A stretch of DNA of 64,000 bases, taken from the NCBI RefSeq assembly GCF_004015795.1, contig NZ_ML137219.1, positions 131,440 to 195,439 on the forward strand, written 5' to 3'. This DNA comes from Falsirhodobacter deserti. Its GTDB lineage: Bacteria; Pseudomonadota; Alphaproteobacteria; Rhodobacterales; Rhodobacteraceae. Shown here one piece after another: positions 2,256 to 44,864 of the stretch. Below the pieces are notes generated by a model. That model worked only from the letters and a program-made list of their open reading frames with translations, was not told where the DNA came from and did not search any database. The position numbers were made by a program, and so were the translations under genes. Numbering within the stretch: the first letter of the stretch is position 1; each line of letters starts with the position of its first letter.

Positions 2256-3977
<1,722 letters not shown>

Positions 3978-30888: not shown

Positions 30889-31011
30889 TCGACCCCACCG
30901 CGAAGCTCAGTGTCAGCCGCCAGGCCATCGTGCTGGGGATCAGTCGGAGCAGCGTCTATTACAAGCAGCGTCCGGTCGCGGATGCCGATCTGAAGCTGAT
31001 GCACCGGATCG
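30885..31011 (+). pseudogene. IS3-family OrfB, N-terminal stub
   Basis: The first 42 codons match the intact OrfB at 51092 (KLSVSRQAIVLGISRSSVYY) and end at 31011 in MHRI. The DDE core is absent. The frame runs on by chance into unrelated sequence to 31175. Confidence 0.85.
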
Positions 31012-31104
31012 GCATTGATGATGTAACCGCCCCCCGACGGCATCTGTGTGCCAAGGTGGGTCTATCAGGATCCACAAGGGGAGCGGTCATGTCGGAGATT
31101 ATCA

Positions 31105-31669
31105 CGGTCCGGCTCATCGCGTCGCTGCGGAATTTCACATCAAGCGGGCTGTCGAAGGAGAGGCGGCTGAAGTAATCGCTTTCGGTCAGCACGAGGCTTT
31201 CGTCGTCGTCAAAATCGCCATGGAACTTGACAATCTGGGTGCTTTGGCTGTCGGCAAGCGCGATGTCGCGTGCATTGGCGATCTTGGCAAAGCTGCGGCC
31301 GTGCAGCCCGAAAGCAACCTCAAGGTTGCGGTCGTAGTTGGTCGTGTAGATCAATGGAAAATCCAGCGAAACGATCAAGTCGTGAATGCTCGAATGCTGG
31401 ACCTGCTCCTCGGAGACCTTCCATTCCCGATCCATCCAGCTGCGCAACGCACCAATGCTTCCCCGACGGATGCGGTAATATTCCGCCACCACCTGATGGG
31501 TGCTGCCGGGAAGCAGCCCGTCCGTCGGTAGGTCCAGTTCGCGCACCATATGGTCGACCAGTCTCTGCCACGAGGGCAGCCCCACGACCATCGATACACC
31601 CGCACCGACGAAGAGAATGGCCCGGCGTTCCCGGATGGATCGGGCAAGATCGTCAAGATCGTCCGACAA
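31105..31669 (-). pseudogene. SIR2-like NAD-binding domain protein, C-terminally truncated
   Basis: About 185 residues of a SIR2-family fold remain: ILFVGAGVSMVVGLPSWQRL (the GAG-x-S NAD site), IYTTNYDRNLE (TTN-D motif), and KFHGDFDDDESLVLTESDY (the catalytic HG pair). Homology stops near 31110 and is replaced by unrelated sequence that runs into the IS3 stub. No ATG is available; a TTG at 31669 is the only in-frame start seen. SIR2-domain proteins of this kind often act in anti-phage defence by depleting NAD. No partner gene survives, so this is probably a dead defence gene. Confidence 0.7.
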
Positions 31670-32261: not shown

Positions 32262-32555
32262 TTAACCCGGGACGCGGCTTCGCAAAAGCGAACGGAGCAC
32301 AGCCCCCAGATCATCGCCGGAGAAGGGCTTGGCCAGCACGGGAGTGGCTTCGAAGCCGACGGGCAGAGCCTCACGGCCATAGCCGGTGGCGAAGGCGAAG
32401 GGAATTCCACGCCTTGTGAGGATCTGCGCCAGATCGTCGGTCCGCAGCCCGTTCAGGTTTGCGTCGACCAGCGCCGCATCGAAGGTGGCCTGTTCCGCGA
32501 GGTGCAGGGCCTGTTCCAGCGTCGCCGCAGGCCCGACGACGCCGGCCTCCAGGCC
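32262..32555 (-). pseudogene. Response-regulator receiver domain, C-terminal two-thirds
   Basis: The frame reads GVVGPAATLEQALHLAEQA, then DAALVDANLNG with the phospho-acceptor Asp region, GIPFAFATGYG and the conserved Lys in VLAKPFSGDDLG, and ends at the TAA at 32262-32264. This matches single-domain receiver proteins common in alphaproteobacteria. The N-terminal acidic pair is missing, because the sequence is joined near 32558 to the tail of the broken plasmid rep gene. Confidence 0.75.
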
Positions 32556-32792
32556 ACCACGCTCTCCCGAAGAAGGGGCGCCAGTCGCTTGTCGAAGCTA
32601 TATGTTAGCATCCCATGCCGCCTCTCGCTATCGACCATGTCGTTACCGCCGAGCAGCTGCACGCGGGTCGTGCGACCGTCGATCCCACGCACGATGACAA
32701 CGGTTTTCATTAGCGCCTCAATGCTATCGCTGATGCGCTCGTGTATCGACCCAGTGAAAATCTGCTCATGCTATAAGGAGTAAAACGTAGCG

Positions 32793-33110
32793 ATGAGTGG
32801 ACCATTGGAAGACGTCGTCAAACGGTGGACGGCCAAGCGCAAGTCGGCGCTGGTTATCGAGATCATTCAAGGCAAGACGACGGTGGCGGAAGCCAGTCGC
32901 AGTTTTGACCTTTCCCCGTCCGAGATTGAGGGTTGGGTCGATGATGCCCGTCGGGGCATGGAGAATGCGCTTCGGGCGAACCCGCTCGATGTCCGGCAGG
33001 AATACGAGAAGCAGCTTCGCGACCTGCAGGAAGCCTATGGCGAAGCGATGTTGGAACTCCGCGCCCGAAAAAAGTTGGCGGCCCTCATGGAGCGGGAGGA
33101 CGACAATTGA
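32793..33110 (+). CDS. IS3-family OrfA of the intact element
   Basis: A 105-residue protein with a helix-turn-helix (KRKSALVIEIIQGKTTVAEA followed by FDLSPSEIEGWVDDA) and a coiled-coil tail (EYEKQLRDLQEAYGEAMLEL). It binds the element ends and, through ribosomal frameshifting, forms the N-terminus of the OrfAB transposase. Its TGA overlaps the start of orfB (TTGA). Confidence 0.9.
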   Translation: MSGPLEDVVKRWTAKRKSALVIEIIQGKTTVAEASRSFDLSPSEIEGWVDDARRGMENALRANPLDVRQEYEKQLRDLQEAYGEAMLELRARKKLAALMEREDDN

Positions 33111-33928
33111 TCCGGACGCTCCATGAGGGCCTGCTGGCGGACGGGATCCGGGTATCGCTGGTGAAGCTCTGCGCATGGTTCGGCGTGCCGCGGCGGACCG
33201 TCTACTACAAGCCGACCAAGGCCGCCCCGAAGATCAATCTTGGCTTCGCCGAGCCAATCAAGGCCATGATCGAGGAGAACCCCTCCTTCGGCTACCGCAC
33301 GGTGGCGTTCCTGCTGGGCTTCAACAAGAACACCGTGCAGCGGATTTTCCAGCTGAAGAACTGGCAGGTCCGCAAGCGGCCCATTGGCATGCGGCCCCGC
33401 ATCCAGGCGATGCCATCCGTCGCCACGGCGCCGAACGAACGCTGGTCCACCGACCTCTGCCGGATCTGGGCTGGCAAGGACGGCTGGACCTCGCTGGCAT
33501 TGGTCATCGACTGCCACACGCGTGAGCTTCTCGGTTGGCACCTGTCGCGCACCGGCAAGGCAACCACGGCAGCCAGCGCGTTAGAACACGCCCTGATCAG
33601 CCGCTTCGGCACCCTCGGACGCGTCAACCGCGAGTTCCTGCTGCGGTCGGACAATGGCCTGGTCTTCACCAGCCGCCACTACACGGCATTGGTCCGTAGC
33701 TACGGGCTAAAGCAGGAGTTCATCACCCCGCATTGTCCGCAGCAGAACGGCATGGTCGAGCGTGTGATCCGGACGCTGAAAGAGCAGTGCGTGCATCGGC
33801 ACCGCTTCGAAAGCATCCAACACGCTGCCCGCGCGATCGGCGATTGGATCCAGTTCTACAACACCCGCCGCCCGCATCAGGCACTTGCAATGCGAACACC
33901 TGCCGAGGCATTCAGATTAGCGGCATAA
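33107..33928 (+). CDS. IS3-family OrfB transposase of the intact element
   Basis: A 273-residue DDE transposase with an rve integrase core. The catalytic residues sit in WSTDLCRIW (Asp), LLRSDNGLVF (Asp) and NGMVERVIRTLKEQ (Glu). The N-terminal HTH_21-like segment (FGVPRRTVYY...SFGYRTVAFLLGF) is standard. It ends with the usual FYNTRRPHQAL. The frame is intact and overlaps orfA by 4 bp, which fits translational coupling or a -1 frameshift fusion. Confidence 0.92.
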   Translation: MIRTLHEGLLADGIRVSLVKLCAWFGVPRRTVYYKPTKAAPKINLGFAEPIKAMIEENPSFGYRTVAFLLGFNKNTVQRIFQLKNWQVRKRPIGMRPRIQAMPSVATAPNERWSTDLCRIWAGKDGWTSLALVIDCHTRELLGWHLSRTGKATTAASALEHALISRFGTLGRVNREFLLRSDNGLVFTSRHYTALVRSYGLKQEFITPHCPQQNGMVERVIRTLKEQCVHRHRFESIQHAARAIGDWIQFYNTRRPHQALAMRTPAEAFRLAA

Positions 33929-34168
33929 CCTGAGCAGATTCTGCTGGGTCGATACACTCGTTCCCAGCGTGGGTGCCTCGAAGCTCAGAAAGAGGAATGG
34001 AGAAGTCTCTGCCTTCAAACCCCATGTCCGGGCCGAAAGCATTGGCCAGCAGGCGGTTGTAGAGGCGCCGCGCAGCGAGAGAGAGGCCCGTTGCGCCTTG
34101 GATATCGATCAGCTCGGCGGGCTTGATCATCTCGCCGTTTAAGGGGCGCACTTCAAGCGTCCGGCGCA

Positions 34169-34190
34169 GATTATAACTTTTGGGGTGATC
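34169..34190 (-). repeat. Inverted iteron inside the 5' end of rep
   Basis: On the minus strand GATCACCCCAAAAGTTATAA matches the iteron consensus found upstream (ATCACCC, a 5-6 bp gap, then GTTA). It lies within the first ten codons of rep and points the opposite way to the main array. It could let the initiator repress its own gene. Confidence 0.55.
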
Positions 34191-34275
34191 TTCTGCTTGC
34201 ACCATGCCTGCCTGTCTCGCTTTTTGCAGGCGATGATAGTCATTTTCTTGATCTGGAGAAGCCCCGGAAGATAAA

Positions 34276-34407
34276 TCACCCCATCGGTTACAATGCGGTG
34301 GTAAATGTCTGCACCAAAATCACCCCACTGGTTACGATAGATCACCCAGTAAGTTACAGAAAATCACCCGAATTGTTTCGATAGATCACCCGATTAGTTA
34401 TCGTCAT
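34276..34407 (+). repeat. Iteron array of a plasmid replication origin
   Basis: TCACCC followed by a GTTA/GTTT core recurs with starts at 34276, 34320, 34342, 34364 and 34386. The spacings are 44, 22, 22 and 22 bp, so all sites lie on one face of the helix and one unit has decayed. Such arrays are the binding sites of iteron-type initiators. The array starts about 70 bp upstream of the broken rep gene. Confidence 0.82.
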
Positions 34408-34410
34408 GGA

Positions 34411-34715
34411 AATTATACAAGTTGTTTCAGTAGCCTATCCCTGCCGAAGAAGAAGAAAGAGAAGAAAGAAGAGACCGGAAAAGGTGACACACAACATGTC
34501 CCCTAATTCCAAGGCCCCTGGACCCAGTCCTACGAATGCACTGGCCTTCTCAGACCTTCCATGCACCTGCGCATACTCGATCTCCGACAGCATCTTGATG
34601 ATGCCGAGACGAATACCCGGATCAGCTGCCACCTCGCCATGATCGAAGTGGGGGCTCCTCGTCTGCAAGCACCCTGGCGGAAGGGGTCGAAAGCCCCACC
34701 GATCTACTGCTTTGG
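34411..34715. other. Gap between the iterons and the IS5-type element
   Basis: No gene can be named. A minus-strand frame of 77 codons (34435-34668) has a plausible soluble part (AADPGIRLGIIKMLSEIEYA) and a hydrophobic end, but no ribosome site or family was recognised. A purine-rich run (GAAGAAGAAAGAGAAGAAAG) lies near 34444-34463. Confidence 0.35.
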
Positions 34716-34721
34716 ATGAAC

Positions 34722-35482
34722 ATGCGAGACAAGCGATACTTCTGGCTGAGCGCGCGGCAGATGCAACGACTTCAGCCGTTCTTTCCCAAGGTGCGAGGCC
34801 GGGCGCGGTCCGACGACTGCAAGGTGCTGAGTGGGATCATCTACGTCAAGCGCTATGGGCTGCGGTGGCAGGATGCGCCTTCTGTCTATGGGCCCTATAA
34901 GACTCTGTATAACCGGTTCGCCCGCTGGTCTCGAATGGGCATCTTTGTCCGGATATTTCAGGAACTGGCGCAGCCCGGCAACCATGGCGACACGTTGATG
35001 ATCGACAGCACATTCCTGAAAGCGCACCGCACCGCAGCAAGCCTGCGAAAAAAGGGGGCCGTCCGCGGGCGATCGGACGCACGAAAGGCGGCCTGAACTC
35101 CAAGCTGCACATGCTCAGCGACGGCGAAGGCCGCCTGCTGAACGTCTTCCTCTCCCCAGGCCAGATGGCCGACAGCCGAGGTGCCCTCGTGCTGCTACGC
35201 CATCTGCCGAAAGCGAAGCGCTTCCTGGGTGACAAGGCTTATGATGCCGACTGGCTGCGCGATGACCTCAAGAACCGTGGCATCCGTCCCTGCATCCCGC
35301 CCAGGAAGAAGCGCAGAAAACCGGCCAGATACAACAAGCGCCTCTATCGCAAGCGCTACCGCATCGAGAATGCCTTCGGTCGTCTGAAGGACTGGCGTGG
35401 GGTCGCGACCCGCTATGAGCGCTGCGGGGACATCTTCCTCAACGCCATCATCCTGGCCGCGATCATCATCTTCTGGATATGA
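34722..35482 (+). CDS. IS5-family (IS427-like) transposase in two overlapping frames
   Basis: The first frame (34722-35096, 124 residues) carries the N-terminal domain and the first Asp (LMIDSTFLKAHRTAASLRKK). The second frame continues with GGLNSKLHMLSDGEGRLL, then FLGDKAYDADWL (second Asp) and YRKRYRIENAFGRLKDWRG (Glu), and ends at 35482. The frames meet at a slippery AAAAAAGGGGG near 35049-35059, as in IS427-group elements that make the transposase by frameshifting. The terminal repeats could not be defined; the right end is probably near 35498, where another transposase fragment begins. Confidence 0.82.
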
Positions 35483-35499
35483 AACTTATAGGGATGGAC

Positions 35500-35694
35500 C
35501 CTATGATAACTCAGCTGTCGAAAGCTTCTTCAAATCCCTGAAGGCCGAACTGATCTGGCGCTAGGATTGGCACACCCGGCGCGACGTTGAGATCGCACTC
35601 TTCGAATACATCAACGGTTTCTACAACCCGCGCCGGAAACACTCGACCTTGGGCTGGACATCACCCGTGGCCTTCGAACAACGGGCCGCATAAC
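35500..35694 (+). pseudogene. IS3-family OrfB C-terminal remnant
   Basis: The fragment reads PYDNSAVESFFKSLKAELIW, a TAG stop, and then continues to FEYINGFYNPRRKHSTLGWT and a TAA. This is the end of an IS3-family transposase unlike the two others in the window. It abuts the IS5-type element, which probably inserted into it. Confidence 0.8.
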
Positions 35695-35910: not shown

Positions 35911-36196
35911 TTTATCTGTCATAGCTGAACGCTAGTGCCCTAAGCTGCATGCCGTCACCGATACAACCTGACCGCCCAACGCCTCTACAAAGTGCTTTAC
36001 AATGGCGCGCATCATAGCCGCAGCATCATGTGGCCAGTCTTTCCAGACAAGTAGTTTCACCGCTTTTGAGTCTGTAGAAAACAGCCCGGACCCGATCGGG
36101 CGATCATCATGCTGGCCCGCCCTCCCAGTCCGGGGCGGAATACCGGCGAGAGTTGACGATATTCAGACCGGCCCACATGAGAAAGAACAAGCGTAA
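35911..36196. other. Upstream region of the GGDEF-EAL gene
   Basis: No gene or RNA was recognised in 286 bp. It marks the end of the insertion-sequence pile-up and should contain the promoter for the c-di-GMP protein; no clear promoter motif could be chosen. Confidence 0.35.
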
Positions 36197-39100
36197 ATGG
36201 CACGCCTCACAACAGCCGACCGTTCTGACCAAGCCCGTGGCCCTTCTTCCGCACCCGGGGATACCACACAACCTCACTCTGCAGGGTATGAAACCTCGTC
36301 ATCGGACCTTCCCGGAGAGATACTGGGAAGTCTGATCAACGGCGTTCCGGACCCGATCGCAGTGAAAGACAGGGATGGCCGCTTCGTCCTGATGAACGAC
36401 GCGATGTGCGCGCTATTGGGGCGCAGCCGCGATGAGGTGCTGGGGCGGACCGACTTCAATTTCCTTCCCGAGGAGCAGGCGCGGGGCTTCCGCGCGGACG
36501 ATCAACACGTTCTGACGACCGGCGAGGAACGCGACGTTGAAGAGGAACTGACGTCGGCCGACGGCCGCGTCCAGCTTCTCAGAACCCGCAAGCGCTGGAT
36601 TTGGCTTCCTGGACCAACGGGACGGGCACCCTTTGTCCTCGCGACCATACAGGACATCACCGAGAGCCGGCGGGCCGAGATGGCGCTGCGGGAGAGTGAG
36701 GCCCACTTCCGGTCGATGGCCGATGGCGCGCCCGTGATGATCTGGATGAGTGACCCGAGCGGCGCCGGCATCTTCTGCAACAAGATGTGGCTTGCGCTGA
36801 CCGGGCAGAGTTATGAGGAGGCGCTTGGCTATGGGTGGCTGAAGGCCATTCATCCTGACGACCAGAAGAGGGTGGAACAGATCTTCCTGGCCGCGAGCGC
36901 GCGTCGGGAGCCCTATCAGGCCGAGTACCGTCTGCGGACCGTGAGCGGGTCATGGGCCTGGGTGATTGATGTGGGGCAACCGCGCTTTGATGCGCACGGG
37001 AACTTCCAGGGCTATGTCGGTTCTGCTCTCGACATCACGGAGCGGCAGGAGATCCAGGCCGCCCTGCAGGAAAGCGAGGAGCACTATTGGCACTCGGTCG
37101 AGTTGAACCCTCAGATCCCGTGGATTGCAGATCCACAGGGGAACATCGTGGAGGTCTCCAACCGCTGGTGTGCCATGACGGGGGTCTCTCTTGATCAGGC
37201 CCTCGGGCAGAGTTGGACCCGTGCGCTGTATCCTGACGACATTGCGCAGACAGTCCGTCTTTGGAGCACGGCTTTGTTGAGCGGGACGCCCGTGGACGTC
37301 GAGTATCGTCTGCGAAGCGCTGACGGAAGCTATCGGTGGTTCAGGGCGCGCGCCGCGCCTCGTCACGATGACTCCGGTGCGATCCTGCGGTGGTATGGCA
37401 CAATTGAGGATATTCACGAGCACAAGCAGGCGACACTGGCCCTGCAGGAGCGCGAACGGCAGCTTCAGACCGTGTTCAACCAGGCGGTTGTCGGCCTCAT
37501 GCACCGTGACCAGAGCAACCGGGTGCTCATGATCAACCAGCACTACTGCGAGATCCTGGGCCGGGCCCGGGAGGAGCTCGAGGGCGTGTCCATGATCCAG
37601 TTCACGCATCCCGAGGACGCCAAGTGGCAAGCGCCACTGCTGCAGCAACATGAAGCCACCGGTGAGCCGCTTCAGCTGGAGAAACGCTATCTCCGACCGG
37701 ACGGCTCCGTCGTCTGGTGCAAGGTCAACGTCTCCTATGTGCGTGACGACGCTGGCGCGGTTGCCGGGACGATCACCGTGGCGGAGGACATCACCGCCCA
37801 CAAGCTGGCGGAGGAGCGCGCTCAAGAGGCCCACAGTCTTCTGCAAGAGGTGATCGACAGCGTGGACGACCTGATCTTCGTCAAGGATCGGAACGGGCTC
37901 TTCCTGGCGGCAAACCTGAAGTTCGGCGGTGCCAAGATCATAGGGAAATACGATCATGAGTTGTACGAGCCGGAGATTGCCGAAAAATATCGTTCGGATG
38001 ATCTTCGGGTCCTTGCAAGCGGCCGCAAACTGAGCGTTGAGGAGGACGTTCCCGGGGAGACTGTTCGACACTATCACACCGTCAAGGTGCCGTGGCGCAA
38101 AAACGGCGACATCATCGGCGTCATCGGCATCGCCCGAGACATCACGGAGCGGAAGAAAACCGAGGAGCGCCTGCGGTGGGCGGCCCATCACGATGAGCTG
38201 ACCGGCCTGCCGAACCGTCGGCTGTTCCAGAAGAAAATCAAGGATGCCTTCGAAAAGACCATGGCCGGGCAGCGCCGGGTCGGCCTGCTGTCCTTGGACG
38301 TGGATCACTTCAAACAGATCAATGACAAGTTTGGGCACGATGTGGGCGACATCTTCCTGAAGGGCTTTGCCGACCGCCTGCGTCAGGCGGTGGGGCGCCA
38401 AGGTGTGATAGCCCGGCTCGGCGGGGATGAATTTGCGGTTCTTCTGCCTGATATCGGTGGAGAAGACGACGTCAGGAGGATCGCGCAAGCCATCCTCGCT
38501 CACATGCACGAACCCCTCTCGCTCCACGGGAATATCTTGGACTGCCGCACCAGCATCGGCGGCACGGTTACTGTCTTCAAGCGGGATGAGGACCCTGATG
38601 AGTTGCGCAAGCAGTCCGATCTTGCCCTTTACGCCAGCAAGGCATCGGGCCGGGGCATCTTCACCATGTTCCGCCCGGCGATGCGCGAAGATGAGCAGAA
38701 AGTGGCGTCCGCTCTTCGGGTGGCGGGCCAGGCGGTCGCCTTCGACTGGATTATGCCTCACTATCAGCCAAAGGTCGACCTGCGTTCCGGCCGTTTGAGC
38801 GGCTTTGAGGCTTTGCTGCGCTGGCACCCCCCTGGCACCGGCATCCAGCCGCCTCACATGATCGCGCCCGCCTTTGACAACACCGATCTCGGCATCAGCA
38901 TCGGCATGCGCATCCGGTCCTGTGTGTTCCAGCACCTCCAGAAGTGGCGGGGTTCAGGCACCGAGGTTGGACGGATCGCAATCAACGTCTCTGCAGCCGA
39001 GTTCCGGCGCGATGACTATGCCGAGCAGGTTCTGGACGAACTGGACCGCGCCGGCCTCCCGACGCGTTGCCTTGAGGTCGAGGTGACCGAAGGCGTGTTC

Positions 39101-39487
39101 CTAGGGTATGGAGCCGACTTCGTGAAACGAGCCTTGCGCAAGCTCAGCGACGCGGGGGTGACCATCGCATTGGATGACTTCGGCACAGGTTATGCCTCCC
39201 TGTCGCACCTGAAGCAGTTCCCCGTCGACGTTCTCAAGATCGACCGGTCCTTTGTGATGGACATGGAAAGGGACGCCAGCGACGCGGCCGTTGTCAAAGC
39301 GGTTCTGAGCCTCGGACTGAACCTCGATCTCCAAGTGGTCGCCGAAGGGGTCGAGACGGTTGAACAAGTGGCCCTCCTGCGTCAACTGGGCTGCAGCACC
39401 GCCCAAGGATATCACTTCGGCCGGCCCATGGCCGTCACCGACGTGACGCGCTTCATCTCCTCGTGGGATGGCAGCAAGGTCTGGTAA
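36197..39487 (+). CDS. Five-PAS GGDEF-EAL protein (cyclic-di-GMP turnover)
   Basis: A 1096-residue protein with, in order, about five PAS/PAC repeats (roughly 45-155, 165-285, 290-410, 420-540, 545-655), a GGDEF domain (motif GGDEF at 742-746) and an EAL domain (EALLRW at 871-876). The cyclase motif is canonical, and the RxxD inhibitory site is absent. The EAL side also looks active: ALDDFGTGYASLSHLKQF, DVLKIDRSF and VAEGVET are all present. No transmembrane segment or signal peptide is visible, so it is probably a cytosolic sensor whose PAS domains bind ligands or cofactors. The ribosome site is weak. It is monocistronic and flanked by mobile DNA on both sides. Confidence 0.92.
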   Translation: MARLTTADRSDQARGPSSAPGDTTQPHSAGYETSSSDLPGEILGSLINGVPDPIAVKDRDGRFVLMNDAMCALLGRSRDEVLGRTDFNFLPEEQARGFRADDQHVLTTGEERDVEEELTSADGRVQLLRTRKRWIWLPGPTGRAPFVLATIQDITESRRAEMALRESEAHFRSMADGAPVMIWMSDPSGAGIFCNKMWLALTGQSYEEALGYGWLKAIHPDDQKRVEQIFLAASARREPYQAEYRLRTVSGSWAWVIDVGQPRFDAHGNFQGYVGSALDITERQEIQAALQESEEHYWHSVELNPQIPWIADPQGNIVEVSNRWCAMTGVSLDQALGQSWTRALYPDDIAQTVRLWSTALLSGTPVDVEYRLRSADGSYRWFRARAAPRHDDSGAILRWYGTIEDIHEHKQATLALQERERQLQTVFNQAVVGLMHRDQSNRVLMINQHYCEILGRAREELEGVSMIQFTHPEDAKWQAPLLQQHEATGEPLQLEKRYLRPDGSVVWCKVNVSYVRDDAGAVAGTITVAEDITAHKLAEERAQEAHSLLQEVIDSVDDLIFVKDRNGLFLAANLKFGGAKIIGKYDHELYEPEIAEKYRSDDLRVLASGRKLSVEEDVPGETVRHYHTVKVPWRKNGDIIGVIGIARDITERKKTEERLRWAAHHDELTGLPNRRLFQKKIKDAFEKTMAGQRRVGLLSLDVDHFKQINDKFGHDVGDIFLKGFADRLRQAVGRQGVIARLGGDEFAVLLPDIGGEDDVRRIAQAILAHMHEPLSLHGNILDCRTSIGGTVTVFKRDEDPDELRKQSDLALYASKASGRGIFTMFRPAMREDEQKVASALRVAGQAVAFDWIMPHYQPKVDLRSGRLSGFEALLRWHPPGTGIQPPHMIAPAFDNTDLGISIGMRIRSCVFQHLQKWRGSGTEVGRIAINVSAAEFRRDDYAEQVLDELDRAGLPTRCLEVEVTEGVFLGYGADFVKRALRKLSDAGVTIALDDFGTGYASLSHLKQFPVDVLKIDRSFVMDMERDASDAAVVKAVLSLGLNLDLQVVAEGVETVEQVALLRQLGCSTAQGYHFGRPMAVTDVTRFISSWDGSKVW

Positions 39488-39601
39488 ATGTCTCAGCCAT
39501 GAGACGATGACGACCGAACATTCGGAACTTGGGGGTGGCCGCCGGCCGCCTCAAGATTATGGCCTTATCAAGGCCGGTGATGAAGTAGATACTATGTCCA
39601 G

Positions 39602-42503: not shown

Positions 42504-44864
<2,361 letters not shown>

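Follow-up and report, generated by a model that had tools for sequence, protein, structure and literature searches.

Whether a rep gene and a set of iterons inside a large contig mark a working origin or only what is left of one is the question raised by a locus of Falsirhodobacter deserti. The stretch analysed here, called the window, comprises 64,000 nucleotides (C2:131440-195439; positions below are those of the window unless a contig is named) and lies on contig C2 (257,933 bp) of a genome of seven contigs and 2,982,257 bp in total. Contig C1 (2,292,967 bp) was taken as the chromosome from its size. The earlier note, made from the letters alone, described the locus as a whole plasmid replicon that had integrated into the chromosome and had been inactivated by an insertion sequence (IS).

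The split of rep by a simple IS insertion was borne out. A 1,215-bp IS3-family element (32742-33956, plus strand; ends TGTATCGACCCAG.../...CTGGGTCGATACA) lies between two Rep_3-family pieces and is bordered by a CTCG target-site duplication (left copy 32738-32741, right copy 33957-33960). It carries overlapping orfA (HTH_Tnp_1; 32793-33110) and orfB (rve integrase core; 33107-33928), both on the plus strand, and shows the helix-turn-helix, the DDE integrase core, the terminal inverted repeats and the short target duplication of the family. The 5' piece of rep (33960-34205, minus strand) encodes residues 1-82 in 82 codons, and its open frame now continues through IS sequence to 33912. The second piece (32556-32740, minus strand), with 59 codons at 32561-32737, covers residues 84 to about 143, where homology to the intact rep ends.

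The plasmid search that the earlier note proposed for Rep was carried out by running each piece in tblastn (E ≤ 0.01) on a set of 72,556 plasmid records. The first piece matched 19 records and the second 28, the annotated features under the matches were always named replication initiation or initiator protein, and the best match was pCP157_06 of Paracoccus marcusii CP157 (NZ_CP065898.1, 41.7 kb). Genome contigs were also scanned with an alignment of five relatives, which gave 44 loci. The close set consisted of pCP157_06 and the loci of P. gahaiensis (L034), P. shandongensis (L035), P. aerius (L072) and Falsigemmobacter faecalis (L040). In all five of these uninterrupted relatives, exactly one residue (E, glutamate) separates the two pieces, indicating that the frame restored by removing the IS and one CTCG, as originally suggested, is correct. 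The first piece is identical to pCP157_06 at 72 of 82 residues and to both L035 and L072 at 75 of 82; for the second piece the figures are 58 of 59 and 59 of 59, respectively. Searched alone, the pieces gave either a Rep3_N match of E 0.3, below the Pfam cut-off, or no match, so that their membership in the Rep_3 family, including the WH1 domain, is assigned through relatives: the P. marcusii rep, which matches both pieces, matches Rep3_N at 4.1e-9, and a scan of four intact relatives, pCP157_06 plus three copies on plasmids, showed both Rep3_N and Rep3_C in each. DUF matches of single pieces were below the cut-off and were rejected.

The five iterons upstream of rep, placed at multiples of 22 bp in the earlier note, are genuine. 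They occupy 34273-34404 on the plus strand (starts 34273, 34317, 34339, 34361, and 34383), and their 44-22-22-22 spacing is identical to that of the five direct iterons of pCP157_06. The original count held for the direct copies and missed a sixth, inverted copy (34173-34189, minus strand) within the rep 5' end, a putative operator of rep. In both the window and pCP157_06, the distance from this single inverted copy to the closest direct iteron is 101-102 bp, and the inverted copy is kept in 5/5 close relatives. The P. shandongensis and P. aerius loci have six direct iterons and one inverted iteron each, the P. gahaiensis locus three direct iterons (≤1 mismatch) and the inverted copy, and the F. 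faecalis locus four direct iterons (≤2 mismatches) and the inverted copy. The pattern ATCACCCN5GTTNN, chosen after the repeats had been seen, occurs six times in the window, always in the iteron region; 100 sequences of 64 kb simulated with a Markov-1 model gave a mean of 0.11 and a maximum of 3. In a scan of 21 loci, 15 taken from the set of 44 on contigs and six from plasmids, the pattern was present in the four close loci and in none of the 17 others, at least one of which (L014) is truncated on the upstream side of rep. The direct repeats, which precede rep in helical phase and recur in the relatives, characterize the region as the remnant of an iteron-type oriV. No DnaA box with ≤1 mismatch was detected at 34130-34520, and pCP157_06 has one such box, with one mismatch, near its iterons.

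How much of a replicon is present was judged from the extent of homology. Leaving out the IS, the block in common with pCP157_06 runs from 32559 to 34469 and then stops; it takes in rep, the inverted iteron, and the five iterons at equal spacing, and its outer end, defined by homology to pCP157_06, is the segment 34405-34469. The Rep of pCP157_06 has ~268 residues, of which the window retains about 143; homology stops at 32556-32559, and the WH2 domain is gone. The left coordinate of 32561 given previously marks no gene end; it lies where the homology to rep breaks off (~32556), and the rejoined gene lacks its second half. A protein search with pCP157_06 Rep (E ≤ 0.001) revealed no C-terminal half of this rep elsewhere in the genome; the matches were the two pieces on C2 and distant full-length relatives on C3 (45%) and C4 (31%). 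The ParA proteins of pCP157_06 and the P. shandongensis locus had no full-length match in the genome and nothing on C2; the only matches were to other ATPases, encoded on C1 and C5, over 41-61 residues at 39-49%. When ORFs of pCP157_06 and of four close relatives were compared with the window and three C2 stretches (E ≤ 1e-8), only a 30% transposase and 31-38% resolvases were found in common besides rep.

Where rep breaks off, it is fused to a response-regulator receiver fragment (32265-32552, minus strand). The profile match of this fragment is weak (20.6 of 30.2 bits, below the curated cut-off; E 0.0005), with clear relatives elsewhere, and covers profile positions 24-109 of 111, the first 23 being missing. 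Searches for an intact source gave only 33-47% relatives in the genus and matches under 60% on plasmids. Since both rep and the receiver gene are incomplete at the junction, two genes were cut at one point. Judged by its sequence, the Rep_3 gene here is a remnant and no working member of its family, and the ~700 bp of remnant plasmid sequence would probably be incapable of replicating alone. Because rep ends near codon 143, excision of the IS would not restore a whole gene. The description as a whole replicon therefore fails: only ~143 of ~268 rep codons and the iteron region are present, and neither a WH2 half of this rep (E ≤ 0.001) nor a full-length relative of the matching ParA was found in the genome.

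The placement on the chromosome did not hold either. C2, which is not the 2.29-Mb C1, has its own replication and partition module at C2:54262-57733, where a DnaA_N-domain protein adjoins ParA and ParB. This stretch matches 38 plasmid records, including those of Paracoccus, Leisingera, and Ruegeria. The best match is a Falsirhodobacter algicola plasmid (97.6 kb) with the same three gene kinds and 82.6% identity over 43% of the query. DnaA-like plasmids of Rhodobacterales are named in the literature (PMC9025767), and the C2 module resembles theirs in that the DnaA_N-domain protein adjoins ParA and ParB, whereas C2 adds a partial rRNA operon and the broken Rep_3 module. By its gene content C2 would thus belong among the DnaA-like replicons. 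We infer that C2 is an extrachromosomal replicon run by the DnaA-like initiator, with the DnaA-like module as the active one. As far as sequence can show, the contig is a plasmid with another origin, a finding that the earlier note had itself named as fatal to its reading. Other initiators of the genome are the Rep_3 genes on C3 and C4 and a RepC on C5; an RPA-type initiator (PF10134) was considered and rejected, with 0 matches in the genome. Of the AAA_31 genes on C2, one is the ParA of the DnaA-like module, and the others are a MinD-like gene present twice. The ends of C2 have an identical 39-bp sequence in common, an overlap which suggests, without proving, that the contig is circular.

A 23S gene cut by the window edge, a 5S gene, and tRNA-Met were observed at positions 1-2332, so that C2 carries at least a partial rRNA operon, which may explain why the locus had been called chromosomal. 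Given this operon, C2 may be a chromid; the genes relevant to that possibility are the partial rRNA operon in the window, minC, and the MinD-like gene. A 16S search of the genome gave no match and is uninformative, as the same search was positive in only 9 of 14 control genomes. Outside the window, at C2:201734-206368 (L032 6735-11369), a 2,311-bp stretch with minC and the MinD-like gene is present as a tandem duplicate of 100% identity, either genuine or produced by the assembly.

The age of the decay was estimated from the 116 retained codons. Against pCP157_06 and the P. gahaiensis, P. shandongensis, P. aerius, and F. faecalis loci, dN was 0.023, 0.048, 0.012, 0.012, and 0.162, and dS was 1.45, 1.43, 2.31, 2.03, and 1.21, respectively, giving dN/dS of 0.005-0.13. 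No stop, frameshift, or surplus of replacement changes was found. Had rep drifted over a fraction f of its branch, ~190-300 × f replacement changes would be expected, and 3-12 were seen against the four nearest relatives; this allows a drifted share of roughly 1-6% of the branch, a rough estimate since dS is saturated. With so few replacement changes and no stops, the loss of rep looks recent, and the word fossil, used previously, overstates its age. A second copy of the IS at C1:1865018-1866232 is identical in all 1,215 bases and has its own 4-bp duplication, TCCG. It shows that one of the two jumps was recent, but not the direction, so the insertion into rep is not dated by it. The claim that the IS came after integration likewise could not be sustained: the order of events is not readable from a simple insertion, because the 3' truncation, a second lesion, could have killed rep first.

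The two rep pieces and their join, the iterons, the truncation, and the presence of a second replication module are read directly from the assembly. We consider it likely that the locus is what decay has left of a second replication module in a composite replicon, an ordinary relic of a plasmid merger and of a type of event already known. C2 would have acquired all or part of a plasmid of Paracoccus type. The incoming Rep_3 initiator, going by the roles known from its family, would bind the 22-bp iterons, opening the origin, and would bind the inverted iteron, limiting its own expression. With a resident replication system in place, this second module would not have been needed. One break, a deletion or an illegitimate junction, would have cost rep its second half (WH2) and the neighbouring response regulator its start, and in the other the IS3-family element would have jumped into the remaining half of rep. 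Both the fusion and any order of the lesions are inferred here. An empty site was sought in the six other genomes of the genus, and among the candidates scored (up to 40 per genome) the matches were only partial and none joined the flanks, so the fusion event is not seen directly. A composite plasmid combines replication systems of separate origins; on C2 the DnaA-like module is accompanied by the Rep_3 remnant, which is broken, and no complete second system was seen.

Because only ~700 bp are left, we also weighed whether the fragment had ever replicated here: it could have arrived in truncated form, carried along by transposition or recombination within an IS-rich stretch, so that the IS hit a dead sequence. 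Transposase debris on either side of the remnant is in keeping with such an arrival, as are the lack of the C-terminal rep half and of a matching parA in the genome and the scarcity of other genes in common with the relatives in the window and the three C2 stretches. Yet the iterons, the inverted iteron, and the 5' half of rep stand together in their native layout, and the retained codons bear no sign of relaxed selection, though a very recent arrival would look alike. We regard this course of events as unlikely, if worth keeping in mind. Another thought is that the remnant is kept as a device of plasmid exclusion, in which the iterons titrate, or a WH1 stub poisons, the Rep of incoming pCP157_06-like plasmids. 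The iterons, the inverted iteron, the rep start, and the first 82 codons are intact, and plasmid incompatibility is described as determined by iterons (PMC3832669); however, the loss is too recent for conservation to carry meaning, and around the resident Rep_3 gene of C3 (45% related) there is no copy of the pattern, only one site with two mismatches. This role is very improbable. Integration of a whole replicon into the chromosome, with the IS alone inactivating it, would account for the clean duplication around the IS in rep and for the iterons upstream, but C2 carries a replication and partition module of its own and rep is without WH2 even when the IS is removed, which, barring a misassembly of C2, makes that reading scarcely credible.

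Several known plasmids come close to the locus in one respect or another. Like the window, pCP157_06 has rep, the inverted iteron, and five direct iterons, but there rep is uninterrupted, includes WH2, and lies beside a hypothetical gene and ParA on an independent circular plasmid. Small Paracoccus plasmids with Rep_3 modules include pHAE2, pAES2, pAES3, pHAE1, and pMARC4 (PMC3832669). As described in that source, 19-bp repeats occur five times in pHAE2, set 3 bp apart, which gives the same 22-bp period, and in the pAES2 group a single partial iteron in inverted orientation adjoins the rep start, as here; all five are whole plasmids, unlike the remnant. Composite plasmids are known in this group, according to the report on pMM259 of Martelella mediterranea (PMC5613091). 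Like C2, pMM259 combines replication systems of two origins in one replicon, one of them dispensable and expected to be lost; both of its systems are RepABC and reported functional, whereas C2 has a Rep_3 module, already broken, in a DnaA-like replicon. The locus would accordingly offer a fresh snapshot of a step predicted there, the decay of a spare replication system after two plasmids fuse. The Rep_3 module, whose other occurrences in this analysis were in Paracoccus and Falsigemmobacter, is here on a replicon of probably another genus, and the presence of rep and iterons does not necessarily mark the origin of the contig that carries them. No current view is changed by the locus. A search of titles and abstract openings found no description of it, which is not proof of absence.

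Three partial loci among the 44 were read. On a 1.42-Mb contig of Flavimaricola marinus, a Rep_3 remnant contains a stop (L076 5001-5300); in Falsigemmobacter intermedius, a Rep_3 frame runs, as judged by eye, into a transposase-like frame after residue ~92-105 (L074 2901-3176); and the third (L077) is a partial Rep_3 locus cut short near the end of the available stretch. With broken Rep_3 genes found elsewhere, such events are not unique to this genome.

Several further features were observed around the locus. Beyond the right edge of the remnant lies an IS4/5-type transposase element in two frames (34716-35507, plus strand), 99% identical to C1:1907088-1907879. On the left, a gene with a SIR2-like domain (30959-31669, minus strand) is next to IS3-type debris and may be a broken defence gene. 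A large serine recombinase (2289-3977, minus strand) directly adjoins tRNA-Met, and the genes after it match DUF6634, AAA plus M41-peptidase, and DUF927; together they are perhaps an integrated element. At 36171-39488 (plus strand), a PAS-GGDEF-EAL protein is encoded, and its paralogous stretch, 84-87% identical in nucleotides, breaks off at the two ends of C5, which suggests that this contig (106,094 bp) is circular. A TPP riboswitch was located on C2 at 44411-44530 (minus strand), near a stretch resembling thiC of other plasmids.
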